Source: a virus. Taken from it: a stretch of 30,477 nt of DNA. The position numbers and the translations under genes are program-made. The notes under the pieces are model-generated. The model saw only the letters and a program-made list of their open reading frames with translations, was not told where the DNA came from and searched no databases. Below are positions 10,788-30,477 of the stretch, in pieces. Position 1 is the stretch's first letter; each line of letters starts with the position of its first letter. Where the stretch lies: the IMG/VR virus record IMGVR_UViG_3300038825_000241, positions 813 to 31,289 of that record. One strand, given 5' to 3'.

Positions 10788-10840
10788 TTTCTTGAACTTT
10801 GTTAATTAAACAACTATTTATTATGATTTTGGGTTATTTT

Positions 10841-11797: not shown

Positions 11798-11798
11798 A

Positions 11799-16859: not shown

Positions 16860-17349
16860 TTTTGTACTTCTTGTTTAATTCGTTTATGCTGAACTCTAGG
16901 AAGTCTTGTACATCTAGAGCGTATGCTAGTGCTACCTCATCAGGGAGCTTGTCATATCCTAAGCTGAAGGGGCGTGAGTAGAAGTTACTCGCTGGTATCC
17001 CTCTCTTGCCTATGCTTTTGGTGATAGCCCAAGCCGTACTATCGTAGGTCTTGAACCTACCTCTGTTATCTCGGAACTGAATCCTGCGCTGTTCTACCCA
17101 TTTAAGGATAGCAGACTGCGGAGGGTTCTTGCCCTTCTTTCTACCCTTGTCTACCCACTCACCATATTCCTCCATAAAGAAGTCGAAGCTCATAGAGTTC
17201 TCCATCACCTTAACATCGTAGCGTAGCGAGTCGTAGAGCTTCTTAGTGTTGTTCTTCTTTAGGCGTGTTAGGTTCTTTCTGGATTCCGTTACCAGATACT
17301 TCCCGAACTTGTCTAGAGCGAGTTGTGTATTTCGGTTTCTGTTCTCCAC
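16846..17349 (-). CDS. Tail completion/neck protein, HK97 gp10-like
   Basis: The 167-residue protein has the gp10-type layout: an N-terminal helix (LALDKFGKYLVTESRKNLTR), a beta hairpin EYGEWVDKGRKKGKNPP, and a C-terminal helix preceded by KRGIPASNFYSRPFS, where the R-P-F/FYSRP element is the usual end of this domain. gp10-like proteins cap the head-to-tail joint. It overlaps the tail terminator-like gene by one base. Confidence 0.7.
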   Translation of the reverse strand: MENRNRNTQLALDKFGKYLVTESRKNLTRLKKNNTKKLYDSLRYDVKVMENSMSFDFFMEEYGEWVDKGRKKGKNPPQSAILKWVEQRRIQFRDNRGRFKTYDSTAWAITKSIGKRGIPASNFYSRPFSLGYDKLPDEVALAYALDVQDFLEFSINELNKKYKNGGN

Positions 17350-17804
17350 TAACAGATGTTATTTGGATTGATAGCCTCAATCACTAGCGTAGCCTTCCAG
17401 CCACAGATGTTAGCCTCATAGTCCTCATCAAAGGGTTCTGCTACTGGATCGTTTGCCAAACGGAAGTAGGCATCGTATTCGTTACCTCTACGGAAGGTAG
17501 CCAGTACCTCTGAGATCGTAGCAAGTGTTCTGTGGTAGATGTCTTGCTTCATCATTCCTCCCTGATACAAGTCCTTCGCATCCTTAGAGTAGTCTACTAT
17601 ATCCATCACTAGCAAGTCGAACTCGTAGGAGATGGTTCTCTCGTTTAGCGTAGCGTTGCCTGTAATGATATGAGCAAGAGGGTACATATCCATCTTACGG
17701 AAGTCGATGTCAAAGATGTTGCCCCAGCTCACTTGATTGATGTGGTCATTGGCTTCAACTGCTGATTTGATAGCCTCTGTTATTTGGTAGTATCCTTTCT
17801 TCAT
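17349..17804 (-). CDS. Putative tail terminator protein
   Basis: The 151-residue alpha/beta protein starts MKKGYYQITEAIKSAVEAND, with SWGNIFDIDFRKMDMYPLAH, a beta strand TISYEFDLLVMDIVDYSKD and a helix HRTLATISEVLATFRR. This resembles tail terminators and minor tail proteins of the gpU type, and its place before a gp10-like gene fits. A strong terminator and a variant of the GGGTTTTATAATT element lie just upstream. Confidence 0.6.
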   Translation of the reverse strand: MKKGYYQITEAIKSAVEANDHINQVSWGNIFDIDFRKMDMYPLAHIITGNATLNERTISYEFDLLVMDIVDYSKDAKDLYQGGMMKQDIYHRTLATISEVLATFRRGNEYDAYFRLANDPVAEPFDEDYEANICGWKATLVIEAINPNNIC

Positions 17805-17806
17805 AC

Positions 17807-17819
17807 AATTAAAAAACCC
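17807..17819 (-). repeat. Variant GGGTTTTTTAATT element before tail terminator gene
   Basis: On the minus strand CAAATAGGGTTTTTTAATT lies two bases upstream of ATG 17804. It differs at one position from GGGTTTTATAATT found at four other places, and shares the preceding CAAATA with the copy at 21666-21678. Confidence 0.6.
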
Positions 17820-17838
17820 TATTTGCTAAAATAAGGAT

Positions 17839-17868
17839 AAAAAAAAGAGAGAGCCGAAGCCCTCTCTC
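17839..17868 (-). terminator. Rho-independent terminator after Cys-rich ORF
   Basis: On the minus strand GAGAGAG/CTCTCTC (17862-17868 with 17847-17853) has an eight-base loop containing TTCG and is followed by eight T. It ends the terminase/chaperone transcript before the tail operon. Confidence 0.8.
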
Positions 17869-17894
17869 AACCAAACCAATCTAGCGAACCACCA

Positions 17895-18059
17895 CTAGAT
17901 GCCTAAATGTATTTCTTCTTCTTCGCATTCGCACTCGGAACACTTGCAGGTTTCACAGCAACCACAAGCCCATTCCTCATCTACATACTCACCACAGACT
18001 CCGCATTGTCTCTCCTCGTAGTCTTGGTACACCGCTAGTTCCCAATCCAAGTAGTCCAT
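17895..18059 (-). CDS. Cys-rich zinc-ribbon-like small protein (54 aa)
   Basis: The ORF starts MDYLDWELAVYQDYEERQCG and holds nine cysteines in about 26 residues: CGVCG, then CGCCETCKCSECEC, and ends in an acidic tail. Such spacing suggests binding of one or two zinc ions. Its ATG overlaps the stop of the upstream 70-residue gene, and a terminator follows. I know no function; an RNA polymerase-binding or structural metal protein are both possible. Confidence 0.6.
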   Translation of the reverse strand: MDYLDWELAVYQDYEERQCGVCGEYVDEEWACGCCETCKCSECECEEEEIHLGI

Positions 18060-18271
18060 CACGCAAATAATTTAAATAGGTTGTGTACGCTGAACGGCTC
18101 GAAGGGGTGGAAGATGCTATGCACATCCATCGCCTCTCTGATAGTCATACCCAGTACGGAGCTGTTGTGTTCTAGTGAGTACATAATCAGCTTCCCTGTG
18201 CTAGGGTACTTCTCTACCTCCTTGTCTACTTTCTCCCTGTGTGCAGGAGTCATTTGTTGATATAAGTTCAT
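18059..18271 (-). CDS. Hypothetical protein (70 aa), first gene after a promoter
   Basis: The product starts MNLYQQMTPAHREKVDKEVE and looks like a small helical protein. Upstream are TAGAGAGATG at the start, the shared leader TAAATCAAAACA, and a -7 box TATATTTG. It therefore opens a short operon with the Cys-rich gene, inserted between the chaperone and tail genes. No family recognised. Confidence 0.6.
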   Translation of the reverse strand: MNLYQQMTPAHREKVDKEVEKYPSTGKLIMYSLEHNSSVLGMTIREAMDVHSIFHPFEPFSVHNLFKLFA

Positions 18272-18279
18272 CTCTCTAA

Positions 18280-18301
18280 TGTTTTGATTTAGTCAAATAT
18301 A
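18280..18301 (-). promoter_or_regulatory. Candidate -7 promoter with shared leader
   Basis: TATATTTG (18294-18301, minus strand) matches the Bacteroidota -7 consensus TAnnTTTG exactly, followed after two bases by TAAATCAAAACA (18280-18291), as in the promoter at 1106-1152. I find no clear -33 box. Confidence 0.45.
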
Positions 18302-18321
18302 AACAGAGATTTTTTAATAAC

Positions 18322-19073
18322 CTAATAAGATTTTGTGTTCATCAAAGATTTTTCAACTTCTGCCTTGTCGAGTTGGAACTCTAGGAAGGTGAGACAGGTA
18401 CGAGCTGGTAGCTCTGTTACTTCATCAAACTTTGTGAGATCACCTCCAGCAATCGTATTGATTGCGCCATACCAACCCCACTTCCTTGAGAACTGAGTCT
18501 GCTTGTCGAAGCTGGGTTCATCTCCTCCTCCTTCTGCGAAGATCGTAGGAAAGTTATTAGTAAGCTGATCTCTAAACGATAAAAAAAAAGCAGACAACCT
18601 AAGAAGATGTCAGCACCCAAGTCCTGAAAGCCTAGCCCATTGTGCTTGTCAGGATCGTAGGTCTCTACGAGATACCTTCCGTACATCTTACTAGTGATAG
18701 GTCTATACAATATCCCTAGAACCTTCTCAGCGTTCTTGTAAGGCTCTTTCAGGTATTCATCGAGGTCTACATACTCTCCCATAGAGATGTCCTCTAATTT
18801 GGGGTGGAAGCCGTATTCTACGCCTCTGTATTTGAATGTCTGTACAAGTGCTGGTTTCTCGTTCAGCACCTCACCTATCTTCCCTCTGATGTAGTCTCTG
18901 TCCTTCTTCTTCATATTCTCCTGCTGGTCAGGAGTAAGACCACAGAAGTGATAGAGAGCTTGTTCATCTCCATTCTCCTCCGTAGCCATCATTATGAACT
19001 TCTTGTACTTCTCTACTGAGATATCGGCTAGTGCCTCTGGTATCTCTATCTTAACGGATTGCGTACCTTCCAT
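18322..19073 (-). CDS. Tail-assembly chaperone-like gene with probable -1 frameshift
   Basis: Frame 0 starts at ATG 19073 (23 bases inside the terminase gene) and runs to a stop at 18417, giving 218 residues. At residues 162-164 it crosses TTTTTTTTT (18581-18589). A -1 slip there, T-TTT-TTT followed by TTA, leads into a frame ending at 18322 and gives a 250-residue product whose tail (WGWYGAINTIAGGDLTKFDE) looks more like a real protein than the frame 0 tail, which is Ser-rich. A G/GT-type chaperone pair is the best explanation. A sequencing error in the T run or a real mutation are alternatives. Confidence 0.65.
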
Positions 19074-20205
19074 AGTTGGGTTTGCTTAGTTTGTTATATA
19101 CTCCATATCTCGCTGCATCAATCAAGTGATTCCACTTGTCCTCTGGCTTGTTCAGCAAGTTACCATTTTTATCTTCCATCCAGCGATAGTTCTCCATCTC
19201 CTTCATGAGGTTAGCCCCTACGATGTGGAGCTTGTAACGCTTCAGCATATCTATCCCTGCGTTCACACTATCTATTCCCTTAGTAGTAGGCTTGATGTTC
19301 CACCCCATACGATGTAGCTCCTCTATGCTCTTAGGCTCTGCCGAGTCTGCGAATATCTCCTCGTACCTACCTACGCCTATGTCGTAGAATCTAGTAGACA
19401 GATCCTGATTAGTCAAGTTAGTGCTGTATAGCATCTCCTCAAAGTAGAGGTTGTTCCCTTCTTGGTAACAGCGCACCAGCGCACTAGGATCATTGGTGAA
19501 CCCGAAGTCAAGACCATAGGAGAGGAACTTAGCTGTGCTAGGCACTTGCTGTATGGTTGTGAATTGGAATACCTGCGCTCTGTTAGTACCTCGCTCTCCT
19601 AGTCCATACACCCTCCAGTAGTGGTCATCTGTTTCCTTGAGTCGTTCTATCTCCTCTACTATCGTAGCATCTAGGAAGGGATTGTCTAGGTAGGTAGTCT
19701 GGTAGAAGTCTACATCATCTCTCGGTATTACCCTGTCGTATATCCAATGGTAGGTATCGGAGGGGTTGTAGTCAAGTATGATCCTGCCGTTGGTACGGAA
19801 CACGATCTGCTGCCAGTCCTCAAAGCTCAACTCGTTCGCCTCGTTCAAGAAGGCTAGGTCTCTCTTGCGCCCTCGAATCTTTTGTGGTTGGTCTAGCGAC
19901 ACGAACTCTACAAGGTTGCCGTTGAGAATGTACTCGCTGTTGGACTTGTTGTGGTTATCCTCTCGGTACAGGTCGTACTGCTTGAGGATGTCTAGGAAGT
20001 CTCTCATCACAGAGCTGCGTACCGCAGGGAAGGTCTTACGAGCTATCGTGATAGTCTTGCCTGTATTGTGGGTGCAGTAGTAGAAGATAATCCAGAGTAT
20101 GATGTTGTAGGTCTTACCACTACGAGTACCCCCTTGCTCTACTACTATCTTCTTGTCTGACCTCTTGAGATGTGTGTATACTTTATTGACTGCTATCTTC
20201 CCCAT
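19051..20205 (-). CDS. terL: Terminase large subunit
   Basis: The 384-residue protein has Walker A GGTRSGKT (25-32), Walker B DLAFLNEANE (116-125), and the RNase H-like nuclease with GLDFGF (D233), FADSAEPKS (D287) and HLIDAARY (D363). It powers DNA translocation into the prohead and cuts the concatemer. It resembles PBSX XtmB-type terminases and is at the short end for the family. It overlaps the small subunit by 23 bases. Confidence 0.95.
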   Translation of the reverse strand: MGKIAVNKVYTHLKRSDKKIVVEQGGTRSGKTYNIILWIIFYYCTHNTGKTITIARKTFPAVRSSVMRDFLDILKQYDLYREDNHNKSNSEYILNGNLVEFVSLDQPQKIRGRKRDLAFLNEANELSFEDWQQIVFRTNGRIILDYNPSDTYHWIYDRVIPRDDVDFYQTTYLDNPFLDATIVEEIERLKETDDHYWRVYGLGERGTNRAQVFQFTTIQQVPSTAKFLSYGLDFGFTNDPSALVRCYQEGNNLYFEEMLYSTNLTNQDLSTRFYDIGVGRYEEIFADSAEPKSIEELHRMGWNIKPTTKGIDSVNAGIDMLKRYKLHIVGANLMKEMENYRWMEDKNGNLLNKPEDKWNHLIDAARYGVYNKLSKPNYGRYAIR

Positions 20206-20533
20206 CTAGTTCCTCAATGGTGAATGTCTGGATGCCCTCGTGGGTTATCTCTTGGCGTTCTATGTAGCCTCGCTTCTTGCCCTTTGTCTTTAGATAGAAG
20301 ATAATAGCCGTAGCGTTCTCCTTTTTAATCTGGCTGTGTAGTTTGCTTTCAGCATAGTCGAGTGCGACATTCTGTAAGTCATCTACTGCTTTCTTATACT
20401 CTGGGTCATTCTCCATCCATAGGTAGTGTGTAGTTCTTCCTATACCCACGCTCTTACAAGCTGAGGTAACTACCCCTAGACTTGACTCTAGAGCATCGAG
20501 CATTGCCTTTTTATGCTGTTCAGTTTTGTCCAT
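20183..20533 (-). CDS. terS: Terminase small subunit
   Basis: The 116-residue protein has an N-terminal helix-turn-helix (about residues 8-40: ALESSLGVVTSACKSVGIGR) with TTHYLWMENDPEY, then a helical oligomerisation part (ALDYAESKLHSQI and TAIIFYLKTKG). This is the small-terminase pattern, which recognises the packaging site. It overlaps the methyltransferase fusion by 14 bases and the large subunit by 23. Confidence 0.85.
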   Translation of the reverse strand: MDKTEQHKKAMLDALESSLGVVTSACKSVGIGRTTHYLWMENDPEYKKAVDDLQNVALDYAESKLHSQIKKENATAIIFYLKTKGKKRGYIERQEITHEGIQTFTIEELDGEDSSQ

Positions 20534-21665
20534 ATGGTTCTCCGTTTATCTTGACTTCAAGTGCTGAATCTAGTTTCTTCATTCGGTCAATGATGACCTG
20601 ACAATACTTAGGGTCAAGTTCCATACCATAGCACTTACGCTTGAGTTGATGTGCTGCTACCATAGTAGAGCCGCTTCCGAGAAAGAGGTCGGCAACTAAA
20701 TCATTTTGCTTGCCCCAATTATTGAAAAACCAAGATGCTAACTCTATTGGCTTTTGTGTTGGGTGAACTCGTTCACCATCTTTTTCTTTATTTTTAAATC
20801 CACCCCAAGTAATCCAAGCCATTTTGTTTCTTTCTTGTTTACTCCAACAAAGTTCAAAGTCAACATAAGGCACATCTTTTTGAGATTCTGTTTTTCTATT
20901 CCAAACTATACATCCTCCCCGACCAAGATGTTGTGGGTAGTATTGCATACCCCATACAAAAATCTCTTTACAATAAGAAAAATACGATAGTAAAAATGAT
21001 GGGTTAAAATCTTCCGCATCCCCTATTATCTTTCCAAATTTTTTACTTTTGCCGCCTGTGTGTTTTTTTTGTATCTCATTCCATCTATCATCATTGTAGT
21101 CTATTCCATAAGGAGGATCTGTGAATACCATATCAGCCTTCTCTCCATTCATCAACTTAGCCACCTGATCACTATCCGTAGAGTCTCCACAGAGCAATCT
21201 ATGCTCTCCTATCTCTATTAGGTCTCCTAGTACGATGTCGGTTTGTATGTCATCTGCTGCTTCGTAGTTATCCTCCTCCGCTTCTAGTACCTCATCTACT
21301 GCCCAGTCATCAGGTATATCCATACCCCAGTCGATAAGCTGCTCAGTATCCCATTCATTAGCTAGTATATCCCAATCCCATTCACCGAAGCTAGAGTTGT
21401 CTTTGATGACAAACTCCTTCTGCTGTTCTTCCGTTAAGTTGTCAGCGTAGATGATAGGCACTTCCGTTAGCCCTGCCTCTCTACAAGCTCGTAGTCTCAT
21501 ATTGCCTCCTAAGACAATCATATCCTGATTCACTACGATAGGTCGTAGGTCTAGCATCTGTGGAAATTCCTTGATGCTCTTAACGAGCTTCTCGAACTTG
21601 TGGTCTTTGATGTATCGAGGATTCTCCTCGTTTAGCCTAACCTCTTGAATGTTTACTCTTTGCAT
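20520..21665 (-). CDS. ParB-like nuclease domain fused to DNA methyltransferase
   Basis: Residues 1-95 are ParB/sulfiredoxin-like (LNEENPRYI, PIVVNQDMIVLGGNMRLRA). Residues 145-365 are an amino-DNA methyltransferase with DPPY at 183-186 placed before FLGSGS at 328-333, a permuted beta-type order, and HPTQKP at 301-306. It would methylate adenine N6 or cytosine N4, perhaps to protect phage DNA or mark packaging sites, since it lies next to the terminase genes. Bases 20690-21080 (central part) are clearly more A/T-rich than the flanks, suggesting a recombined segment. Confidence 0.88.
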   Translation of the reverse strand: MQRVNIQEVRLNEENPRYIKDHKFEKLVKSIKEFPQMLDLRPIVVNQDMIVLGGNMRLRACREAGLTEVPIIYADNLTEEQQKEFVIKDNSSFGEWDWDILANEWDTEQLIDWGMDIPDDWAVDEVLEAEEDNYEAADDIQTDIVLGDLIEIGEHRLLCGDSTDSDQVAKLMNGEKADMVFTDPPYGIDYNDDRWNEIQKKHTGGKSKKFGKIIGDAEDFNPSFLLSYFSYCKEIFVWGMQYYPQHLGRGGCIVWNRKTESQKDVPYVDFELCWSKQERNKMAWITWGGFKNKEKDGERVHPTQKPIELASWFFNNWGKQNDLVADLFLGSGSTMVAAHQLKRKCYGMELDPKYCQVIIDRMKKLDSALEVKINGEPYGQN

Positions 21666-21678
21666 AATTATAAAACCC
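21666..21678 (-). repeat. GGGTTTTATAATT element before methyltransferase start
   Basis: The exact 13-base element lies directly upstream of ATG 21665, with CAAATA before it as in the variant at 17807-17819. Other exact copies: 5854-5866, 8513-8525 and 13523-13535. It overlaps the stop codon of the upstream gene. Confidence 0.7.
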
Positions 21679-21911
21679 TATTTGTTTAGATTGCGTTTAC
21701 GCTCCTCTCTGATGATGTCGTTTATCACCTTCTGGTTCAACCTACGCTGCGCTCTGTTGGGCTGTCTAGGTGCATCAGGTAGGTCTACAAATTTAGAGAG
21801 GAATGCTTGTTCATCTGCTGATAGCTGACCTCGTAGGTGGACTTGGGTTAGGATGTGTAGAAACATCTCTAGGTTCTTCCTATTGACTAGGATCTGTTCG
21901 CTCTTGCTCAT
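21678..21911 (-). CDS. Hypothetical helical protein (77 aa)
   Basis: The product starts MSKSEQILVNRKNLEMFLHI and ends with a basic helix (RAQRRLNQKVINDIIREERK). It overlaps the upstream 48-residue ORF as ATGA. It is one of a row of small basic helical proteins at 21678-22576. Function unknown; a small DNA-binding protein is conceivable. Confidence 0.6.
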   Translation of the reverse strand: MSKSEQILVNRKNLEMFLHILTQVHLRGQLSADEQAFLSKFVDLPDAPRQPNRAQRRLNQKVINDIIREERKRNLNK

Positions 21912-22054
21912 TTCTTTGGCTTTACTTTTTTAAGTAGTTCTGTGGTGATTTCAATACGAGAGAAGTACACCTCAGCATTTGCGCCATAGGCATACTTCTT
22001 TCTGTCCTTGCTTGTCATATTGGCTAGAGCCAGTATCTCAGTTGCTCGTCCCAT
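21908..22054 (-). CDS. Small hypothetical protein (48 aa)
   Basis: The ORF starts MGRATEILALANMTSKDRKK and is lysine-rich at its end. Its ATG overlaps the upstream stop (TAATG) and its stop overlaps the next ATG (ATGA), both typical of coupling in this genome. No family recognised. Confidence 0.55.
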   Translation of the reverse strand: MGRATEILALANMTSKDRKKYAYGANAEVYFSRIEITTELLKKVKPKK

Positions 22055-22263
22055 TACATTCTTATTAGTCTCAGTCTCCTCTGGTACTTGCGTATGAGCA
22101 GGGCTGAGTTGGTTAGCTGGTTCTGTATGTCATCACTCCATCCGAATCTACTTGCCTGTATGGATAGGTTGACATTGTCTATCATAAGCATCTCTAAGTA
22201 TGCTTGGGTAGTTTTTATGTGCCGTCTCTTGCGGAGACTGCTCTTAATCATTCTCAATACCAT
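22054..22263 (-). CDS. Small basic helical protein (69 aa)
   Basis: The product starts MVLRMIKSSLRKRRHIKTTQ and ends RKYQRRLRLIRM; it is strongly basic at both ends, with a helical middle. It is the first annotated gene below the inverted-repeat control region (22277-22440). Possibly nucleic-acid-binding. No family recognised. Confidence 0.5.
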   Translation of the reverse strand: MVLRMIKSSLRKRRHIKTTQAYLEMLMIDNVNLSIQASRFGWSDDIQNQLTNSALLIRKYQRRLRLIRM

Positions 22264-22280
22264 AATCTTCTTTGTCTCGG

Positions 22281-22352
22281 TTACACAAGTATATTATGCT
22301 TGTTGTGTATTTGTCGTACTCTTTCATTTCTCTTTGGTGTTAAAGGTTTCAT
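22281..22352 (-). other. Possible leader peptide or gene remnant (23 aa)
   Basis: A short ORF reads MKPLTPKRNERVRQIHNKH and ends four residues later. The start resembles the N-terminus of larger phage helix-turn-helix proteins, so it may be a truncated remnant, or a leader peptide between the inverted repeats and the gene at 22263. Low confidence. Confidence 0.25.
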
Positions 22353-22438
22353 TATTGCATATCGCAATACACGATATTTTACACTTTGTCACACTATTAC
22401 CTTACTTATGTGACAACATTGTAAGGTTATGACCTTAC
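22353..22438. promoter_or_regulatory. Cluster of inverted repeats, candidate operator/control region
   Basis: Three perfect inverted repeats lie in 86 bases: TATTGC/GCAATA (22353-22358, 22364-22369), TTGTCACA/TGTGACAA (22386-22393, 22409-22416) and GTAAGGT/ACCTTAC (22421-22427, 22432-22438). ACCTTAC also occurs at 22399-22405, giving three copies of one heptamer. No T run follows, so these are not typical terminators. Repressor or initiator binding sites are likely. Confidence 0.55.
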
Positions 22439-22576
22439 TTTGTGTACCACTTTGGTACATCTCTCTACCCATCTGGCGTACATCTTAGCAGCCCAAGCCC
22501 TTCTCTGTTGCTTGTTAGGGTAGATCTTTCTTAACCTCGCATTTGCTATGCGTAGGAATTGGCTCATCTCTTTCAT
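22427..22576 (-). CDS. Small basic protein (49 aa)
   Basis: The ORF starts MKEMSQFLRIANARLRKIYP and is rich in Arg, Lys and Trp. Its ATG overlaps the HNH stop as ATGA, and its 3' end enters the inverted-repeat cluster. The pattern RIANARLRKIYP...RRAWAAKMYARWV suggests a helical nucleic-acid-binding protein, but I cannot name it. Confidence 0.55.
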   Translation of the reverse strand: MKEMSQFLRIANARLRKIYPNKQQRRAWAAKMYARWVERCTKVVHKVRS

Positions 22577-22818
22577 AGTAATTTATTGTGTATGTCTTTC
22601 AACCATTGAACTCTATGAGGTACATCGCCATATACTAGATGACAAGGGCGGCATACCGCCATAAGGTTCTCTATTCTGTCTTTGTCTTTAGCACCTCCTG
22701 ATCCTCTGTTCTCTATGTGGTGTATGTCTACGGCTCTTGCTCCACAAACCTCACAAGGGATAAAGTCATCTAGCACATAGTTAAAGTGCTTCATATAGAT
22801 CTTGGTGTGCTTCTTCAT
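22573..22818 (-). CDS. HNH endonuclease
   Basis: The 81-residue protein has a zinc-knuckle CEVC at residues 22-25 and CRPC at 56-59, the HNH residues H33-H34, N51 and H60, and GSGGAKDKD between. It is of usual length for small phage HNH proteins, which nick DNA and in some phages assist terminase cleavage. It overlaps the methylase-like gene by four bases. Confidence 0.88.
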   Translation of the reverse strand: MKKHTKIYMKHFNYVLDDFIPCEVCGARAVDIHHIENRGSGGAKDKDRIENLMAVCRPCHLVYGDVPHRVQWLKDIHNKLL

Positions 22819-23462
22819 AATACCCTACTCCATTGGTCAGCAATAGCATCAGCCATTCCTTGAAAGGTTTTACTTCTTAATGTTCTTCTTTCCTCTGGAG
22901 TCTTTGCTTTTGCTAAAGCATCTAAATACCACTTCGCTTGACGCTTAGTCTTGCCGTTCTTACCTATCCATTCAACAAACTCTCCCTTATCTACGATGTT
23001 AGTAGGTTCTAGCTTGGGTAGATTCTTGAGCCATAAACAAGTAGACTTACTTGCCTTGTCTCCAAACATATAAGGATGTACGATTTGATTTGGCTTTCTA
23101 ATGTGCGATGATATAACGCTGATAGGGTTTTCTATCGCTATATGTTTAATAGGCGCATCCATCAACTGCTGAACGAAGTCTAGAGCCTCTGCTTGGTTCT
23201 TGTATCTTTCTTCGTTTCTAGAGCCATCCTTATTGTATAACCATCTAGCACCGCTTACTGCTAAGTAGGTACAAGGTGGATGGGCTATCATCATATCGTA
23301 CTTGCCGCTATATGCCTCTGCTATTGCATCGCCTTGTATATGCCAGTCTAGATGACCTCCAGAGCAAGGAAGTAAATCACAACTATATGCTTCAAATCCT
23401 AACTTTCTAAATGCCTTTGTGATTGCTTGTGATTCCTCACAGGCTACTAGTATCTTTCTCAT
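22815..23462 (-). CDS. Cytosine-C5 methyltransferase-like protein
   Basis: The 215-residue protein has a Rossmann start (KILVACEESQAITKAFRKLG), then CDLLPCSGGHLDWHI, the C5-type catalytic motif PPCT (residues 62-65) and ENP (111-113). These are motifs I, IV and VI of cytosine methylases, but the target-recognition region is very short. The family is widespread in phages and its real substrate is not known to me. The gene appears more A/T-rich than neighbours, hinting at transfer. Confidence 0.75.
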   Translation of the reverse strand: MRKILVACEESQAITKAFRKLGFEAYSCDLLPCSGGHLDWHIQGDAIAEAYSGKYDMMIAHPPCTYLAVSGARWLYNKDGSRNEERYKNQAEALDFVQQLMDAPIKHIAIENPISVISSHIRKPNQIVHPYMFGDKASKSTCLWLKNLPKLEPTNIVDKGEFVEWIGKNGKTKRQAKWYLDALAKAKTPEERRTLRSKTFQGMADAIADQWSRVL

Positions 23463-24232
23463 AGCGTGTCTCTAATGATATATGAGTCCAAGTCCTCACC
23501 TATTACGAAGAAGTCCTTATAGACTTTGATGGCTCTGTTAAACTTCGCCTCTCCTCTCTTGTAGAACTCCTCACTCACATCGTAGATACCTATGTCGCAG
23601 GATGCTTTGTCTAGGACTATGAAGTACCAATCCTTGTACGACCTCTGAAAGAGGTTGCAGTACAGGTAACATTGCATATCATATCCGTATTTATCCGCAG
23701 AGTATCTGAATGCCTTGAGGTCTGTCGTGGTCTTGATGTCAGCTAGGAAGCTGTCGTTCCAGATGTCTGCCTTTGCTCTAAAGGGAAAGCCCCCTAGCAT
23801 ATCTACCATAGGCTTCTCTGTTTGGCTCTGCTTCAAGAAGTGCTTTGCGTGTTCGTTCCTTTGGAACGCATCTACTATACGCTCTCCCTGCTCTAGATCC
23901 TTTCTAGTGATACAAGTCTTGCTCGATGATGCTTGGGCTTCCTTGTATGCTTTGGTGTTCTTAGAAGCCACATCTACCACCTCGAAGATATCATCGAATC
24001 TCTCAGGCTCTAGGATCATCGTATGGATGATACGCCCTTGTAGTAACGCTGGACTAGACTCGTTAGAGCCATAGGTCTGCACATTGTAGAAAGTCTTAGG
24101 ACTATCCAGTAGCATCTTTAGACTACTAGAGGATAGGGCTATCTTATTCAATGCTCCGTAGTAGAAGTCATCATCTCTCGCTTTGTCTATAAGCCATTGC
24201 TGATCGTAGTCAGCTCCATCTAGCATTATCAT
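23459..24232 (-). CDS. RecE-like PD-(D/E)XK exonuclease
   Basis: The 257-residue protein has the RecE/YqaJ-like layout: SSSLKMLLDSPKTFYN, LLQGRIIHTMILEPERF with H70, and the nuclease core FRAKADIW (D156), LADIKTT (D165, K167) then DMQCYLY (Q187, Y189). Such enzymes resect double-stranded ends for phage recombination. No RecT or Erf partner is seen; the SSB-like protein at 28562 could serve with it. It overlaps the membrane ORF by four bases. Confidence 0.85.
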   Translation of the reverse strand: MIMLDGADYDQQWLIDKARDDDFYYGALNKIALSSSSLKMLLDSPKTFYNVQTYGSNESSPALLQGRIIHTMILEPERFDDIFEVVDVASKNTKAYKEAQASSSKTCITRKDLEQGERIVDAFQRNEHAKHFLKQSQTEKPMVDMLGGFPFRAKADIWNDSFLADIKTTTDLKAFRYSADKYGYDMQCYLYCNLFQRSYKDWYFIVLDKASCDIGIYDVSEEFYKRGEAKFNRAIKVYKDFFVIGEDLDSYIIRDTL

Positions 24233-24357
24233 AATGAAGTGTTTAATAGGATAGCCAACAGCTTACCAACGGCAAGAACGGCAAAAGTGAATGTCATAGC
24301 TACGATACCTATGGTCGCATAGTAGGTAGCCTCCTGAAGTTTAGTGTACTTTTTCAT
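24229..24357 (-). CDS. Small single-helix membrane protein (42 aa)
   Basis: The ORF starts MKKYTKLQEATYYATIGIVA and has one long hydrophobic stretch (about residues 12-39). It starts at the conserved GAGAGAGATG site and ends with an ATGA overlap into the exonuclease gene. It could be an inhibitor or membrane anchor, unknown. Confidence 0.5.
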   Translation of the reverse strand: MKKYTKLQEATYYATIGIVAMTFTFAVLAVGKLLAILLNTSL

Positions 24358-24381
24358 CTCTCTCTTTTTAAGATTGTTGAT

Positions 24382-24408
24382 GCAATATACACAAAAAACT
24401 TTTAACAA
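24382..24408 (-). promoter_or_regulatory. Weak promoter candidate before the recombination genes
   Basis: TATATTGC (24382-24389, minus strand) resembles the -7 box, with TTG (24406-24408) 16 bases upstream, a short spacing. It precedes a start with a GAGAGAGATG leader, as at the other internal promoters. Confidence 0.3.
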
Positions 24409-24549
24409 CTATTTTTTCTCCCATTGTTTAATGCACACGGCTACACGCTGCATTGGGTTGGGGTACTCCTTAACCATAGTGTGATCGTGTACACACCTAG
24501 TTAGGAACTCATTTTTCTCCTCGTTCGGTTTCTTCTTCGGTAGTGGCAT
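24409..24549 (-). CDS. Small conserved-looking phage protein (46 aa)
   Basis: The ORF starts MPLPKKKPNEEKNEFLTRCV and ends with PNPMQRVAVCIKQWEKK. The C-H...P..QR.AVC...W pattern is one I know from short ORFs in many phages, but its role is unknown. It overlaps the upstream gene by 41 bases in another frame. Confidence 0.6.
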   Translation of the reverse strand: MPLPKKKPNEEKNEFLTRCVHDHTMVKEYPNPMQRVAVCIKQWEKK

Positions 24550-25060
24550 AGGGCAATACTTCAAAAATTAAATCTTCAACATCTTCAAACTTCAGGTAGG
24601 TGAACACATCCTGAGCGTTCCATCTACCCACCCACTTATGTAGGGCTTCCTCGTAGGGGATATAGTTTCTACGCTCTACCTTCTCCTTATTGAATGGCTC
24701 ACATAGTTCTATGGCTCGTACCCTCAAGTGCTTCTTTCTAAATACATAGAACGCATCAGGGAACTGGAAGGCGATATACTCTGCCTTGCTCTTACGGCTA
24801 CACCAGCCGTTGCCTCCCCACACATTGATAAATTCTAGGAGGATATATCCTGAGAGGTGCATCTTCTTCAAGCCCTTAACATCTACCAGCTTCTCTCCCC
24901 AGTAGAAGTCGATGTGCTTCTTGTCATCTTCAAGGTTGGATTTTAGTGCGCCTGTGATCTCCTTGAACAGAGCCTCCCCAGTCTTACCTACCTCAACACA
25001 TACCTTTGTACGAGCTTTCGTTAGCTTCCTTTTGTCCTTTAAGTAGTTATGCAGTTGCAT
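24509..25060 (-). CDS. Putative PD-(D/E)XK nuclease
   Basis: In 183 residues there is GEALFKEITGAL (Glu near 28), KKHIDFYW and LVDVKGLKK (D and K two apart), followed by GYILLEFINVWGGNGW. This E...D...DxK order fits a restriction-like nuclease fold, perhaps a structure-specific nuclease, since it neighbours RecE-like and RusA-like proteins. The assignment is from motif order alone. Confidence 0.5.
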   Translation of the reverse strand: MQLHNYLKDKRKLTKARTKVCVEVGKTGEALFKEITGALKSNLEDDKKHIDFYWGEKLVDVKGLKKMHLSGYILLEFINVWGGNGWCSRKSKAEYIAFQFPDAFYVFRKKHLRVRAIELCEPFNKEKVERRNYIPYEEALHKWVGRWNAQDVFTYLKFEDVEDLIFEVLPYATTEEETERGEK

Positions 25061-25415
25061 CTAGTAGCTCTTGCAGTTCTCTCATCCATTGCATCCAGAT
25101 CTTAGGATTGCAAGTACACGGCACATCAAACTTGTGGTTAAAGACTCTAGCGTGGATAGTCGCTATGCGCTCCCTGTCCTCATAGGCGATAACCCTCTTT
25201 TGTAGAACACCTCCTGCTAGGTAGGTGCGCTCATCATCAGTCAAGCACTCTGGCTCACGCTTGTAAGGGAACAATCTGTTCAACTTCTCCTTGCGCTCAT
25301 CACAGCCGCAATCGTCTCCTACTACTGCCTTAACAGCTGCCTTGATACCTGTTGCTGTGGTGATCTTCTCAATGGTATCTCCTAGCCCCTTAGATTTTGT
25401 CGTAGTCTCCTTCAT
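25047..25415 (-). CDS. Hypothetical protein with CGC and CTC motifs (122 aa)
   Basis: I take the start at ATG 25415 (MKETTTKSKGLGDTIEKITT) rather than the upstream TTG. Residues KGLGDTIEKITTATGIKAAV and CGCDERKEKLNRLFPY form a pattern I have seen in phages of this phylum. CTC later in the chain could pair with CGC to bind metal. It overlaps the GIY-YIG gene by 26 bases at its start. Function unknown. Confidence 0.65.
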   Translation of the reverse strand: MKETTTKSKGLGDTIEKITTATGIKAAVKAVVGDDCGCDERKEKLNRLFPYKREPECLTDDERTYLAGGVLQKRVIAYEDRERIATIHARVFNHKFDVPCTCNPKIWMQWMRELQELLDATA

Positions 25416-25929
25416 AATAATCAAATGTTCTGTTAAATGATTCTCTTCTTAATCTCTGATGTTCTGCCCTATATGGTATATCGTATTTGTCACAGGCAAA
25501 CTTTAATCCTCTAATTATTTCCTTAGTCTCTCTATGAATGACTAGTCTGGAATAAGCCTCAACTCTTGATTTAACAGATTTCTGAATCTCTTCCTTAGAT
25601 TTTTTCCTGCCTTTTTGATATTCACTAAGGAGTTTTTTAGTCTCATCAGTATGATTATATCCTAATGCTCCAGATCCTCCTGCGGTTTTGTTTTTTAATT
25701 GATCAAGACCTATTGCTTCAATTAACCTCTCTTCCATTAGTTCTGCTTCCTGTTTTGATAACCCCTCAGCAACAATTGAAACATCAAAAAAAGTTTCTTT
25801 CAAAACATTCTTCCAATCAGAACTTCTACTATGCTCATCATATGCTCTACCCCTTGTAGATCCAATTCCCACATAGAAAACCTTTCTGTTGTCTTGTCTT
25901 GTATGAATATATACTACATATCCTTTCAT
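25390..25929 (-). CDS. GIY-YIG homing-type endonuclease
   Basis: The 179-residue protein has a GIY-YIG domain: VVYIHTRQ, FYVGIGSTRGRAY (18-30), the helix ELMEERLIEAIG with the catalytic Glu, and N near 80 in LKNKTAGGSG. The C-terminal half has helical DNA-binding (NUMOD-like) repeats. Such free-standing enzymes spread between phages. Base composition (25430-25960) is much more A/T-rich than flanking genes, which supports recent insertion between the sigma-like gene and the 122-residue gene. Confidence 0.85.
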   Translation of the reverse strand: MKGYVVYIHTRQDNRKVFYVGIGSTRGRAYDEHSRSSDWKNVLKETFFDVSIVAEGLSKQEAELMEERLIEAIGLDQLKNKTAGGSGALGYNHTDETKKLLSEYQKGRKKSKEEIQKSVKSRVEAYSRLVIHRETKEIIRGLKFACDKYDIPYRAEHQRLRRESFNRTFDYYEGDYDKI

Positions 25930-26471
25930 ATTATATCATAATCGCCATTTGAAAAATCTTCCCAATCCTCTTTGACTTTTTCGTAGATCCTTGCTTTGCC
26001 ATTTTTGATAGTGTTCTTTATTGAAGTTAGACCTATATCTGATTCTCTGTGTAGCTTGTTCATAGATGTACCCTGCATATAGATACGCATAACCTTAGCA
26101 TCGTACCAATGGAAGTCCTCCATCTCCTGCTCCATTATGTCGAGGAGCTTCTCCATAGCCACCTTGTACTCTGGGTAGTCCTCATCTGGAATGGTATCGT
26201 GGGTTAAATCCTCAAGGCTTACCTTGTTGATGCGCTTCTTCGTGCGCTGGTACTTGAGTGCTGTGTTGATGCAAGACCTATACACATAGAAAAAGTTAAG
26301 GGAGTCCCCCTCGTAAAAGTTGGATCTCCCTTCTTGTTCTAATTCTAGTAGCCGCAGAAACACCATCTGCACTATGTCAGATGCTACCTCATAAGATCCA
26401 TCGGTGTATTCCTTGATGAATCCTGTAAGTCTCTTGAAGTTCTCTCTGTAAAAGTTTTCTATGTTAGCCAC
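25926..26471 (-). CDS. Sigma-70-like RNA polymerase factor
   Basis: The 181-residue protein starts at GTG 26471. The N-terminal half reads as sigma region 2 (EVASDIVQMVFLRLLELEQE; LNFFYVYRSCINTALKYQR) and the C-terminal part as region 4 with a helix-turn-helix (DIGLTSIKNTIKNGKARIYE). It likely redirects host RNA polymerase to phage middle or late promoters. ECF-like length. It overlaps the 47-residue ORF upstream. Confidence 0.7.
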   Translation of the reverse strand: MANIENFYRENFKRLTGFIKEYTDGSYEVASDIVQMVFLRLLELEQEGRSNFYEGDSLNFFYVYRSCINTALKYQRTKKRINKVSLEDLTHDTIPDEDYPEYKVAMEKLLDIMEQEMEDFHWYDAKVMRIYMQGTSMNKLHRESDIGLTSIKNTIKNGKARIYEKVKEDWEDFSNGDYDII

Positions 26472-26602
26472 GACACCTGTACCATAATCAAACCTATGCC
26501 GATTTGTACTAGGTGAAGTCCATCGAACTCATCTGTCGCTTCGTAGTAGGCGTAGTTGATACCTACCATAACTCCTGTAAGTGGACTAAACTCGATCTGC
26601 AT
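26459..26602 (-). CDS. Small membrane-associated or hydrophobic protein (47 aa)
   Basis: The ORF starts MQIEFSPLTGVMVGINYAYY and ends with IGIGLIMVQVSWLT. It overlaps the DnaA-like gene by 17 bases and the sigma-like gene by 13. The hydrophobic C-terminal segment could insert in a membrane. No family recognised. Confidence 0.5.
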   Translation of the reverse strand: MQIEFSPLTGVMVGINYAYYEATDEFDGLHLVQIGIGLIMVQVSWLT

Positions 26603-27035
26603 ACTGGCTTAGGTTTTTATTTTCCTTCTGTAATATACGACAATTTTCAAACAATTCTTTGTTATTATTTTTCAACTTATCAACCTCCGCTTCCAGCTCC
26701 TGTATTCTCATCTTATGTCTAGTAAGCGTGGCTACTAGTTTGTTACGGCTCTGGATGTCTTTCGTAGGGTTGCTGTTCCATACCTCCTTAGCCGTAGCGT
26801 AGAAGAACTGATACATCTTTGACCAGTTGTAATTATCCTCGTGATTGCGTATAGCGTGTAGAACACTTGCGTGGTTTCTATCAAATATCCTGCCTATCTG
26901 CATCAAGGTCATATAGTCTCGCATCACAACCATCATCGCTGATCGTGCGAACACCTGATCTTCTTGGCGTGTGTTGTTAGGTATTACTCCGATAGTCTCG
27001 TAGTATTCACTTAGTACAGGGCTTAAATCTTCCAT
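26586..27035 (-). CDS. DnaA domain IV-like protein with coiled coil
   Basis: Residues about 23-66 match the DNA-binding domain of DnaA: TRQEDQVFARSAMMVVMRD, then LMQIGRIFDRNHASVLHAIR, which parallels the DnaA signature (IG..F..R.H.TV..A). There is no AAA+ ATPase. A Lys/Glu-rich coiled coil follows (about 100-145). It may bind origin-like sites of phage or host and aid or block initiation. It sits beside the helicase and SSB genes. Confidence 0.7.
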   Translation of the reverse strand: MEDLSPVLSEYYETIGVIPNNTRQEDQVFARSAMMVVMRDYMTLMQIGRIFDRNHASVLHAIRNHEDNYNWSKMYQFFYATAKEVWNSNPTKDIQSRNKLVATLTRHKMRIQELEAEVDKLKNNNKELFENCRILQKENKNLSQYADRV

Positions 27036-27253
27036 TTGATGTCTTTCTCTTTTTCTATTATTCGTTTGAAGGGGATCTTGTGTAGACCTCCTGTTGAGGT
27101 GTTTCTTACTATGTAGTAGCTGCCTCCTACTTCTATATCTGGTTCTTCACCATCTACTCTAGTCTGTAATGCGATGCAAGTCTCTAGGCAGATGAACTCC
27201 ATACCATTGATCTCGAACCGCTGACCATTCAGCATCTTCCTTTTAAAGTCCAT
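27023..27253 (-). CDS. Hypothetical early protein (76 aa)
   Basis: The product starts MDFKRKMLNGQRFEINGMEF and looks like a small beta-rich protein with GGSYYIVRNTSTGG. It overlaps both neighbours by 11 and 13 bases and belongs to the replication operon. No family recognised. Confidence 0.55.
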   Translation of the reverse strand: MDFKRKMLNGQRFEINGMEFICLETCIALQTRVDGEEPDIEVGGSYYIVRNTSTGGLHKIPFKRIIEKEKDIKWKI

Positions 27254-27557
27254 CCATACACCCCTCTAGGGCTTTTTGTAGTTTCATATTTTCCTTACGG
27301 AGGTCATACACCTCCTGCTTCATCTTTCCGTTCTCTATACGAGCATCTAGGATAAGCCTGTCTAGTGTACTGAAGTAGTCGGTGATATGGCGGTAGACTG
27401 CTGCCGTATCAGAGCAGATGTTGAACACCTCCCATAGTTGCTCTTGAGTCATCGGCTCTTGGTTGCCTAGCTCTTGGCTGAGGTAGGTCAGGCACTTGTA
27501 CAGCTCGGCTTCTTTCTCTAGGTAGTATAGCCTATTACCCTCAAAATGGAGATCCAT
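27243..27557 (-). CDS. Hypothetical coiled-coil protein (104 aa)
   Basis: The product starts MDLHFEGNRLYYLEKEAELY; its last 35 residues (DARIENGKMKQEVYDLRKEN) predict a coiled coil. Located between the helicase and the DnaA-like gene, it could be a helicase loader or accessory, but there is no direct evidence. Confidence 0.55.
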   Translation of the reverse strand: MDLHFEGNRLYYLEKEAELYKCLTYLSQELGNQEPMTQEQLWEVFNICSDTAAVYRHITDYFSTLDRLILDARIENGKMKQEVYDLRKENMKLQKALEGCMDGL

Positions 27558-28464
27558 CTATTACTCTTTCTTTAGTTATCAAATCTACGCCTCTTATTTC
27601 AAAACCACAATTTCCCTGCTTAGACCTCAGCCTAATCGGTTCTTCTAGTGGGGTAGGTCTACCTCCAGACTCTAGCTCCTTAACCTTGCGGATGTGTATG
27701 TCTGTGTAGATCCAGTCTGTACTATGAGAAATCGCCCTGTGGATGACAAAGAATTCATCGCTGCGGTTCACGAACTTACCCCCTCCTTCAACATCACTAG
27801 CCATAGGAGGCATAGTATGCCCAGCCATTGGATGGCTTCCTTTATACAGCTGTCTTAAGGCTTGAGTAGCTGGGTGCGTGTTTACGATAGTCGTTACTCC
27901 GTACTCCTTGCAGAACTTTCTTATGTGGCTCGTTACCTCGTAGTGGTACTCGTGGGTGCTTACGCCCTTGAGGTATTCCTTGTCGATAGTCAGCGAGTTG
28001 TAGGGATCTATCAAGAAGCCCTCGAACTCCCACGCATCATATACCTCTTTAGCGATGTTTAAAAGCTCAAAGGCATCTACGATAAGCTCAGAATCTAGGA
28101 ACGCCCAATGTGCCTGTACAAATCCGTGATGTCTCCAGAAGGTCTGCTCATCAATCATATTGATAGGCTTACCTGCTAGGAACTCGATGAGCTTACGCTG
28201 TAATGATTGTACCTCGTTCTCGGAGGAGTATATCAACCAGCGTGTGCCGTTCTCTAAGGTGTGTAGCAGTTGTAGGTAGGTCATCGTGTGGGTCTTTCCG
28301 ACATTGGCGTGTCCTGTTACTACAATGAAGTTTCCCTTCTTAAAACGCAGGTATTCATCTATCTCTGGTACTCCAAATCTTGATGCCTCTGCGATCTTAC
28401 CCTCTCTCGCTCTCTCTAGATAGCTTAGGGTTTTGTTGGATTGAATAATGTGTTGGTGAATCAT
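27541..28464 (-). CDS. Replicative helicase-like RecA-fold ATPase
   Basis: The 307-residue protein has Walker A GHANVGKT (51-58) and Walker B FLIDP (150-154), with VTTIVNTHPATQALR and a loop near GGGKFVNRSDEFFVIHR, fitting a DnaB/Twinkle-type C-terminal ATPase. It lacks an N-terminal primase-binding domain and is shorter than DnaB (about 450). It would unwind the phage fork, with the SSB encoded just upstream. RecA-like recombinase is an alternative but the sequence favours helicase. Confidence 0.78.
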   Translation of the reverse strand: MIHQHIIQSNKTLSYLERAREGKIAEASRFGVPEIDEYLRFKKGNFIVVTGHANVGKTHTMTYLQLLHTLENGTRWLIYSSENEVQSLQRKLIEFLAGKPINMIDEQTFWRHHGFVQAHWAFLDSELIVDAFELLNIAKEVYDAWEFEGFLIDPYNSLTIDKEYLKGVSTHEYHYEVTSHIRKFCKEYGVTTIVNTHPATQALRQLYKGSHPMAGHTMPPMASDVEGGGKFVNRSDEFFVIHRAISHSTDWIYTDIHIRKVKELESGGRPTPLEEPIRLRSKQGNCGFEIRGVDLITKERVIDGSPF

Positions 28465-28508
28465 ACCTCTAAATTAACAATGTATTTTTAATATCCTACG
28501 ATAAAGAC

Positions 28509-28540
28509 AAAAAAAAGGAGAGATATTTCTACCCCTCCTT
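28509..28540 (-). terminator. Candidate terminator after SSB gene
   Basis: On the minus strand AAGGAG/CTCCTT (28535-28540 with 28515-28520) with a 14-base loop is followed by a run of eight T. It lies between SSB and helicase and may lower helicase expression. The stem is short and the loop long. Confidence 0.5.
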
Positions 28541-28561
28541 GCCTAACACACAATCAATCAA

Positions 28562-29071
28562 CTAGAATGGTAAATCATCTGTCGCTTGTCCGTTTACGAT
28601 AGCCTGAGCTGTCGCTATCTTTTCCTCTCTTGATGAGAAGTGTGTCTCGTAGGTAGTGTCCTCCTGCTTGTCAGCCTCTAGAACCCACTCCACAAAGCTG
28701 TCTGCTATCTTAAGCACATCGGTACTCTTAGCACCCTTGTCTTTTAGTAGATCAACTGCTGCTTTGAGACAGCTCTGCTTTACGATCATCTTCTGCTTAT
28801 CATCGCCACCTGCTGAATACTTAGGCGTGTAACCGCCTCCTGAGTAACCACCGCCTTGCGAGTACACAGGCTTAATCTTGTTGCCGTACTGCGTACTGCT
28901 CAACTCGTACTCTACCTCTTGACCTACCAAGAACTTATCTTGTTCTGCCTTTACTGAGGAGTATTCCCCAGAGTCTCCATTGTCCATAGACACAAAGAAC
29001 TTGTACAAGGTCTTTCCATCTCTCAGTTGGTAGTCTCCCTTCGGAGACACCGATACTACTTTTGCTTTCAT
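28562..29071 (-). CDS. ssb: Single-stranded DNA-binding protein
   Basis: The 169-residue protein has an OB-fold-like N-terminus (KAKVVSVSPKGDYQLRDGKT; LYKFFVSMDNGDSGEYSS), a Gly/Tyr linker (SQGGGYSGGGYTPKYSAGG), a helical middle, and the C-terminal acidic tip TDDLPF typical of SSBs. The last six residues usually recruit partner enzymes. It is next to the helicase gene. Confidence 0.8.
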   Translation of the reverse strand: MKAKVVSVSPKGDYQLRDGKTLYKFFVSMDNGDSGEYSSVKAEQDKFLVGQEVEYELSSTQYGNKIKPVYSQGGGYSGGGYTPKYSAGGDDKQKMIVKQSCLKAAVDLLKDKGAKSTDVLKIADSFVEWVLEADKQEDTTYETHFSSREEKIATAQAIVNGQATDDLPF

Positions 29072-29074
29072 AAA

Positions 29075-29212
29075 TTATTGATTGTTTAAAGTTTCTAGGT
29101 TTGCTACTTGAGCCTCTAGCATTGCTACACGCTCCTTCATCCATTCGCTACCGATCTGGTCTGCGAAGGTTTCTAAGTCATCTAGGACTTGGTAAATGTT
29201 TTCTGTATTCAT
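29075..29212 (-). CDS. Small helical protein (45 aa), first of SSB operon
   Basis: The ORF starts MNTENIYQVLDDLETFADQI and is predicted to form a coiled-coil helix. It starts at the conserved TAGAGAGATG site below a promoter candidate and ends three bases before SSB. No family recognised. Confidence 0.55.
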   Translation of the reverse strand: MNTENIYQVLDDLETFADQIGSEWMKERVAMLEAQVANLETLNNQ

Positions 29213-29230
29213 CTCTCTAAGAATTTAGAG

Positions 29231-29263
29231 CTAAACTATACAGAAGATTTTACTTATGCAAAA
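29231..29263 (-). promoter_or_regulatory. Candidate promoter for the SSB/replication operon
   Basis: On the minus strand TTTTG (29259-29263) is 20 bases from TAGTTTAG (29231-29238), one mismatch from TAnnTTTG. Start codon ATG 29212 follows within a TAGAGAGATG leader. The promoter begins right where the RusA-like gene ends. Confidence 0.4.
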
Positions 29264-29629
29264 TTATTTGTGAATTATTTTTCCCTCTATGATGATGTGG
29301 CTAGAGTTCTTGGGGAGGTCAGGTGCTGGTTCTATCGACACCTGCTTAACGAATCGCTTGTTGTCATCGACAACCATACCTGCATCTACCAACGCATCCT
29401 GCGTGAACTTGATAGCCATAATGCAGTTGTCTAGATCGTAGCGGTAATTTACTCTGGCTGTGATGGTACAGCTCTCGAATTGGAAATCGTAGTCTAGCTG
29501 GTCAGCTACTATCTTCTTCCACTTAGTCTTTTCCTTGCTCCTGAATGTCCAATGAGGGGAGGAGTAGAACTTGTTGAGGCTTGGTATCTTACCCAGCTCT
29601 ATGACTATCTTGGTGTAATCAGAAATCAT
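29264..29629 (-). CDS. RusA-like Holliday junction resolvase, right copy
   Basis: The 121-residue protein has HWTFR near residue 26 and the acidic site D65-L-D67-N68, D78 and D88-D89, as in RusA. It is clearly related to the left copy (28-411) with shared positions throughout, yet the DNA is well diverged. It acts in junction resolution before packaging. It overlaps a 59-residue ORF by 11 bases. Confidence 0.85.
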   Translation of the reverse strand: MISDYTKIVIELGKIPSLNKFYSSPHWTFRSKEKTKWKKIVADQLDYDFQFESCTITARVNYRYDLDNCIMAIKFTQDALVDAGMVVDDNKRFVKQVSIEPAPDLPKNSSHIIIEGKIIHK

Positions 29630-29798
29630 TACCCATCAATCTCAAACCCATCTCTGGATCTATCTTAGCTATCTCACCTATGAGTTGCAGCTCTTTCTGC
29701 TTCGCCTCTTGCTTCTCTTTCTCGGTACTATCGATACCGATGTTCGTGTAGATACTAGCCATCTGTCTTAGGATATTATCTATCTGAGGATTCTTCAT
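29619..29798 (-). CDS. Small helical early protein (59 aa)
   Basis: The ORF starts MKNPQIDNILRQMASIYTNI and contains a charged helix (EKEKQEAKQKELQLIGEIAK). It overlaps RusA by 11 bases and the 48-residue ORF by 23. Could be a small nucleic-acid-associated helix bundle. No family recognised. Confidence 0.55.
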   Translation of the reverse strand: MKNPQIDNILRQMASIYTNIGIDSTEKEKQEAKQKELQLIGEIAKIDPEMGLRLMGNDF

Positions 29799-29922
29799 AG
29801 GTCTTAATGGTGTATAGTTGATTATCCAATAATAGGTTGATGTGATAGCCTTCTACTATCCAGCAATGGTAGCCATCTTCCATAAGCATACCACACAGCT
29901 TCTGTGCTTGTTCAATACTCAT
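29776..29922 (-). CDS. Small early protein (48 aa)
   Basis: The ORF starts MSIEQAQKLCGMLMEDGYHC and overlaps the zinc-finger gene by 11 bases. It contains two Cys and a beta-like stretch (HINLLLDNQLYTIKTY). Unknown role. Confidence 0.5.
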   Translation of the reverse strand: MSIEQAQKLCGMLMEDGYHCWIVEGYHINLLLDNQLYTIKTYEESSDR

Positions 29923-30172
29923 TGACTCGTACCCAGCTTCTTAACTTGTTCTCATCGTAGAACCCGAAGTGTGAGAGTAAGTGGTTAGAGTAGTCATCTT
30001 CTATCTCTCCTGTCTCTATCTTACGATAGTGTTCTCGGTAAGATCCTGATTTCTTGTTAGAGTGCTTACGATGACATTCCTTACATCTAGGAAGTACTCC
30101 ATCGGAGTACCCTTCATTCTTGTAGAATTCAGTTTTCTCCTTCTCTATATTACACTTAATACACTTCTTCAT
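29912..30172 (-). CDS. Zinc-finger protein with HFGFYD motif (86 aa)
   Basis: The N-terminus has CIKC and CKEC pairs (residues 4-7 and 30-33), likely one zinc site, followed by basic residues and a C-terminal segment HFGFYDENKLRSW. The first part is like phage endonuclease VII/HNH-type zinc domains, but an obvious nuclease centre is absent. HFGFYD recurs at 585-770. First gene after the right junction. Confidence 0.65.
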   Translation of the reverse strand: MKKCIKCNIEKEKTEFYKNEGYSDGVLPRCKECHRKHSNKKSGSYREHYRKIETGEIEDDYSNHLLSHFGFYDENKLRSWVRVNEY

Positions 30173-30188
30173 AATAGTTATAAGTATT

Positions 30189-30205
30189 GTACTCCTACGG
30201 AGTAC
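30189..30205. repeat. Inverted repeat in the right spanin/early junction
   Basis: GTACTCC/GGAGTAC with a three-base loop is a perfect seven-base stem upstream of the zinc-finger start. No T run follows in either direction, so an operator is more likely than a terminator. Beyond it to 30236 the junction is A/T-rich, with repeated TA, as in the left junction. Confidence 0.55.
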
Positions 30206-30236
30206 TTAATTACTTAGTAAGTATAATATATATATA

Positions 30237-30477
30237 TTACTTAAGTACTTTAACTAAAGCGAAGGTATAAAGAATAAATGACATAATCAAGAGGTAGATA
30301 TGTTTCCTCTTAATTTTTTTTTCTTCGTAGACTACTTGAGGTACATTAACCACCTTCTGAATCTTGATCGTGTCTGGCAGACACTCAGCTTCTATCTGTA
30401 TCGTGTCGTGAATGCGCTTTATCTTGACTCTAACAGCGTTTCTCTCTAAAGTGATGGTATCTATCCTCTGAAGAATT
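30237..30477 (-). CDS. Unimolecular spanin, right copy, 3' part only
   Basis: The frame is open to the window edge; its N-terminus lies beyond 30477. It encodes IDTITLERNAVRVKIKRI, AECLPDTIKIQKVV and a C-terminal membrane segment (IYLLIMSFILYTFALV). By hand alignment 41 of 54 residues before the membrane helix match the complete u-spanin at 1334-1732. The lipoprotein end cannot be seen here. Confidence 0.8.
   Translation of the reverse strand, partial: ILQRIDTITLERNAVRVKIKRIHDTIQIEAECLPDTIKIQKVVNVPQVVYEEKKIKRKHIYLLIMSFILYTFALVKVLK

Follow-up and report, generated by a model that had tools for sequence, protein, structure and literature searches.

Metagenome assemblers are known to produce contigs that derive from two genomes (PMC5610896; PMC11443906), and duplicated single-copy-like genes serve as a contamination signal for mixed viral genomes (PMC11704788). 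The window that we analyzed, a stretch of 30,477 nucleotides of viral DNA, comes from a phage family for which the nearest sequenced isolates that we found are the Inhavirus, Nonlabens phages P12024S and P12024L (NC_018271, NC_018272). The MCP is 33% identical to theirs over its full length. The order of structural genes, tail fibre, endolysin, holin, early genes (DUF3310, primase), sigma-like gene and terminase is common to both, although identity is low and the genomes of the isolates are 35.7 kb as against 29-31.5 kb here.

The window corresponds to bases 813-31289 of a virus record (IMGVR_UViG_3300038825_000241) that is 31,289 bases long and classed as linear. In the record, a run of ten N at bases 803-812 marks a scaffold gap, and window position 1 lies directly after it. 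An earlier note on this DNA had reported that a cassette of spanin, A/T-rich junction, HFGFYD protein and RusA-like protein occurs at both ends of the window on the minus strand, and we found it again at the same places, 30477-29264 on the right and 1732-28 on the left, with a spacing of 28,909 bases. The match between the cassettes is far above the chance level, and their likeness at the DNA level is limited to the spanin gene (134 nt, 78%, E 5e-26). As the note had held, the DNA is too diverged for terminal redundancy, which is ruled out since the ends have only these 134 nt in common. The spanins, uSpan0 on the right and uSpan1 on the left, are related, and nearly all of their identity precedes the membrane helix; the overall figure is 46/80 residues (58%), where the note had given about three quarters for the part before the helix. 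The kinship of the RusA-like proteins holds at 36% identity (E 8e-24), and PHROGs assigns both as RusA-like. The two HFGFYD proteins do have that short motif in common, but the wider likeness claimed for them does not extend past it. Gene content also differs, with p61, p57 and DUF3310 found only in the left cassette and an HNH/zinc-ribbon domain and p59 only in the right one (Table 1).

Table 1. Features of the window at its two ends and in the zone between them, with nearest relatives among the contigs searched
Feature	Positions	Strand	Remarks
Window start, adjoins 10-N scaffold gap	1..27	-	
RusA2, RusA-like resolvase, lineage B type	28..411	-	phrog_1682
DUF3310 protein, lineage B	356..730	-	PF11753; 85-96% to lineage B
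HFGFYD ORF, lineage B form	585..770	-	frame conserved in lineage B
p57, lineage B early protein	754..927	-	21 lineage B loci, 0 lineage A loci
p61, lineage B early protein	917..1102	-	97% to L173/L210; absent from lineage A
Lineage B lysis-to-early junction	1103..1343	-	three terminator-like hairpins, 1305-1290, 1226-1209, 1186-1163
uSpan1, putative u-spanin-like gene	1334..1732	-	lipobox-like QSC, periplasmic domain, C-terminal membrane helix
p40 (MNDTDFGF...CEACGS), small protein ahead of last lysis gene	1711..1833	-	54 lineage A + 16 lineage B loci
Tail-fibre and lysis mosaic, nearest relatives in both lineages	1344..5258	-	
Stretch collinear with lineage A contigs: early, replication, terminase and structural genes to p99	5259..30477	-	
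RusA1, RusA-like resolvase, lineage A type	29264..29629	-	phrog_34/1682
p59, small early protein	29619..29798	-	45 lineage A loci, 0 lineage B loci
HNHfyd, HNH/endonuclease VII-like zinc ribbon, C-terminal HFGFYD motif	29912..30172	-	PHROG matches; lineage A only
Lineage A lysis-to-early junction, A/T-rich, CTCCGTAGGAG-type palindrome	30173..30236	-	layout as in L092, L095; unlike left junction
uSpan0, C-terminal part of u-spanin-like gene, 79 aa, cut by contig end	30237..30477	-	lineage A type

The spanin, terminase, helicase, DUF3310, p99 and endolysin served as queries against 2.9 million viral contigs. This yielded ~270 non-redundant contig groups in which one or more window proteins had a match, the reference contigs being themselves metagenomic and many of them short. 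A clear by-product is the picture of an abundant marine phage family with two sister lineages. In lineage A, the helicase and terminase are 80-97% identical to those of the window, and the early genes follow the order spanin, HFGFYD protein, p59, RusA1, ssb-A, helicase-A. In lineage B, the helicase is ~47% and the terminase ~63% identical to the window's, and the order is GTA-type holin (an assignment that rests on phrog_3427), junction, p61/p57, HFGFYD, DUF3310, RusA2, insertion slot, ssb-B, helicase-B. Both lineages retain a single lysis-to-early junction, at which the last lysis gene is exchanged between the GTA-type holin and the u-spanin-like gene.

The RusA type matches the helicase type in 83/83 clear-cut non-redundant contigs, with helicase A accompanied by RusA1 in 58/58 and a non-A helicase by the B-type RusA2 in 25/25. 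Structural genes of type A occur with RusA1 (23/23) and those of non-A type with RusA2 (6/6), and the GTA-type holin is found with RusA2 in 25/25. No contig among the non-redundant relatives has both early modules, and none has a spanin together with a type B RusA2. One contig, L300, was considered as a mixed locus and rejected; it belongs to lineage B, and just one partial structural match in it exceeds the threshold.

An intergenic motif, GGGTTTTATAATT, closely precedes several genes in the window and lies on the gene strand (5854-5866, 8513-8525, 13523-13535, 17807-17819 and 21666-21678), giving 5 matches with at most one mismatch where 0.03 are expected. It is present in every lineage A record checked and absent from the two lineage B records examined. 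A homing-endonuclease-like ORF (phrog_314) at 25390-25929, beside the sigma-like gene, is absent from lineage A relatives; the lineage B-like contig L308 has a 63% relative of it at the same place.

The two ends of the window are collinear with different known lineages, the right end with A and the left end with B. On the right, positions 28560-30477 are collinear with lineage A contig L092 (85% DNA identity over 1.9 kb), and RusA1 has its best identity in lineage A (93%, as compared with 38% in lineage B). On the left, lineage B sequence spans position 1343 to the window's end; positions 1-1144 are 92-97% identical at the DNA level to lineage B contigs L170, L172 and L173, and RusA2 is 100% identical to that of L172 but at most 42% in lineage A. 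The left junction is 82-88% identical to the junctions of L171, L172, L174 and L275, the match beginning at the final codons of the lysis gene upstream, while lineage A junctions differ. Terminator-like sites are also concentrated here, with 4 in 900-1800 versus 0.4 expected. Within the left cassette, the ORFs for HFGFYD and DUF3310 overlap, each in its own frame. Variability in the overlap is highest at third positions of the HFGFYD frame and at second positions of the DUF3310 one. The coding frame there is thus probably that of HFGFYD, and the true start of DUF3310 probably lies further downstream than 730.

Past the scaffold gap, the remaining 802 bases of the record contain dcm2 (a second dcm-like gene), p49 (a small protein) and the first part of ssb-B, and record bases 1-303 are 92-96% identical to the lineage B RusA-ssb interval. 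The order RusA2-dcm-ssbB also occurs in L318, an independent lineage B contig, and because that order is identical we regard the scaffold join as sound. If the spacing in L318 applies, the gap would hide roughly 86 missing bases instead of 10. The dcm-like genes at window positions 22815-23462 and record bases 299-802 are 86% identical in DNA and occupy two different slots, one per lineage. The dcm-like gene is probably mobile; it is rare in both lineages.

Relatives of the window have the lysis-to-early junction once. A single spanin is present in all 17 lineage A records (17/17), eight of which are 27-30 kb long; three lineage B records lack the gene, and none of the ~100 spanin-bearing loci has two spanins on one contig. 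Three contigs have matching ends. In G018, of lineage B and with a genome of 31.6 kb, the ends are 100% identical over 98 bp. The overlap is 286 bp long in G004 (97.6% identity), and in G008 it consists of one stretch of 281 bp at 81% and another of 189 bp at 98%. The end matches yield circular maps of ~29-31.5 kb, each with a single junction, so in relatives that close on themselves the locus is single-copy. G008, in which the ends fall at another place in the genome, is an example from the same family of a unit-length contig that terminates in diverged alleles. The span from spanin to spanin in the window, 28.9 kb, is one unit length, and with ends from two lineages the earlier note's description of one phage-length unit flanked by relatives is borne out.

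The explanation that we think very probable from these comparisons is that the record makes one trip round a circular map and that its ends are alleles of two co-occurring, related phages. Genomes of the family would be circularly mapping, ~29-31.5 kb long, with a single lysis-to-early junction region made up of the last lysis gene, terminators and an early module with HFGFYD, RusA, ssb and helicase genes. The last gene of the late operon is the spanin or holin gene. The terminator-like hairpins come next, and the early genes start on the same strand just past them. Judging from the gene families, the hairpins may end late transcription, and the early module may serve replication and recombination, given its RusA-like resolvase, ssb-like and DnaB-like helicase families. 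Followed along the gene strand, the record would start at a lineage A junction (uSpan0, HNHfyd, RusA1, ssb-A) and end at a lineage B-type junction (uSpan1, B junction, p61, p57, DUF3310, RusA2, dcm2, ssb-B). The apparent duplicate would then be one locus seen twice, once per co-occurring relative, and joined during metagenome assembly and scaffolding. Since linkage and single copy place the same locus in two lineages, the cassettes are not paralogues from a duplication. The lineage of each end, the single junction and circular closure of relatives and the scaffold gap can be read directly from the contigs, and the join was presumably made by the assembler. Against this explanation, the window has no N, no broken genes and a canonical gene order throughout.

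Of the three causes proposed in the earlier note, a chimeric assembly is thus the best supported. A segmental duplication or natural cointegrate would place two spanins, two RusAs and two ssb genes side by side in one genome, and it gains from the intact genes and the contig without an internal gap, from the evident mosaicism by which the lineages exchange tail and lysis modules, and from the existence of a 31.6 kb genome in the family. We nevertheless consider it improbable, as both early modules or two spanins occur in no relative, related contigs close as one-junction circular maps, and the left end continues as a second early region with dcm2 and ssb-B, so that more and more of a second genome would have to be assumed. 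The copies also come from different lineages: neither the spanins nor the RusAs are each other's closest relatives (uSpan0 is 82% identical to its counterpart in L092 versus 58% to uSpan1), so duplication by descent, which would have made them sisters, is rejected. In this improbable reading, a lineage A phage would have acquired a lineage B lysis/early module, and its circular genome would exceed 31.3 kb.

Tandem prophages, or a cointegrate or concatemer of two related phages in one DNA molecule, would account for a record with two related units head-to-tail, and some long Bacteroidales contigs do have distant terminase relatives (46-52%). Yet the lineages of the two cassettes never share a contig elsewhere, and neither junction has host DNA or an attachment site, both being ordinary lysis-to-early junctions with phage genes only. 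There is no integrase among the window proteins scanned (part of the protein set), and no lineage A or B terminase in 84,980 bacterial/archaeal species genomes, where a first scan found none and a second nothing above 62% identity, the best relatives being in Flavobacteriaceae/Winogradskyella MAG contigs. We judge this reading very unlikely, and equally so the suggestion that both ends are alleles of one population through strain variation within a species, with no second lineage involved. End overlaps of that kind do exist in G004 and G008 (97.6% and 81-98%), but here the early modules differ in gene content, and lineage helicases and terminases that are 47% and 63% identical are far beyond strain level. 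Most likely, then, the repeated cassette is an ordinary one, and the genome is neither duplicated nor tandem.

Lineage A sequence can be traced in independent contigs from the right end to ~5.26 kb (L301, L304), and the GGGTTTTATAATT copy at 5854-5866 is the lineage A intergenic motif. The p166-p99 join at 5.8 kb also occurs within L301 and L304, both independent, so a misjoin there, which we had considered, is unneeded. In the mosaic zone, the endolysin (endo) is 90% identical in DNA to lineage B contig L172, hol73 and p92 are 93% and 86% identical at the amino acid level to lineage A, and the 3' part of p125b is 92% identical in DNA to lineage A contig L157. A crossover made in assembly may lie in this zone or further right. 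At its left edge, an A-like spanin meets a B junction, the two sharing ~8 nt near 1343 (GTTAAGTA). The slot before the junction is occupied by the GTA-type holin in lineage B and by the u-spanin-like gene here, and both genes end in V-K-stop with the same 8 nt. The pattern looks as if one lysis gene had replaced the other at the gene end. An assembler misjoin exactly at 1343 is unlikely, as an overlap of ~8 nt is too short for a k-mer join, going by how k-mer assemblers work. Probably, therefore, uSpan1 was joined to the B junction by a lysis-gene replacement in the second phage, a real mosaic feature. The order uSpan1, B junction, RusA2 is found in 0/57 lineage A and 0/20 other spanin contigs. 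Lacking precedent, it may mean either that the second phage is an unsampled recombinant or that there was a further misjoin.

The product of uSpan1 can be set beside the u-spanins, of which T1 gp11 is the type. It and 17 relatives have a lipobox-like N-terminus and a C-terminal membrane helix, and like the known proteins uSpan1 has a periplasmic domain with predicted strands (PMC6139136). Unlike the T1 gp11-type proteins, it has no sequence match in Pfam or PHROGs, and a periplasmic cysteine, Cys87, is invariant in 18 aligned members, whereas none of 58 catalogued u-spanins has one (PMC6139136). The alignment of the family also shows repeated DT motifs, and no match to the spanin was found in annotated phage records. 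A structural model of uSpan1 has a helix-strands-helix layout at low confidence (mean pLDDT 59); a fold search on it was dropped, the model being too weak. We call uSpan1 a putative u-spanin-like gene.

A unit-length viral record labeled as linear may thus end in alleles of two phages, and caution is warranted since such records mimic gene duplication and inflate gene content and completeness estimates. The record resembles the two-genome contigs described by others (PMC5610896, PMC11443906, PMC11704788) in that it spans one genome length, has different alleles of one locus at its ends along with a duplicated single-copy-like gene, and shows a scaffold gap beside the odd end. Unlike the cases in those studies, its two alleles come from clearly separate lineages.
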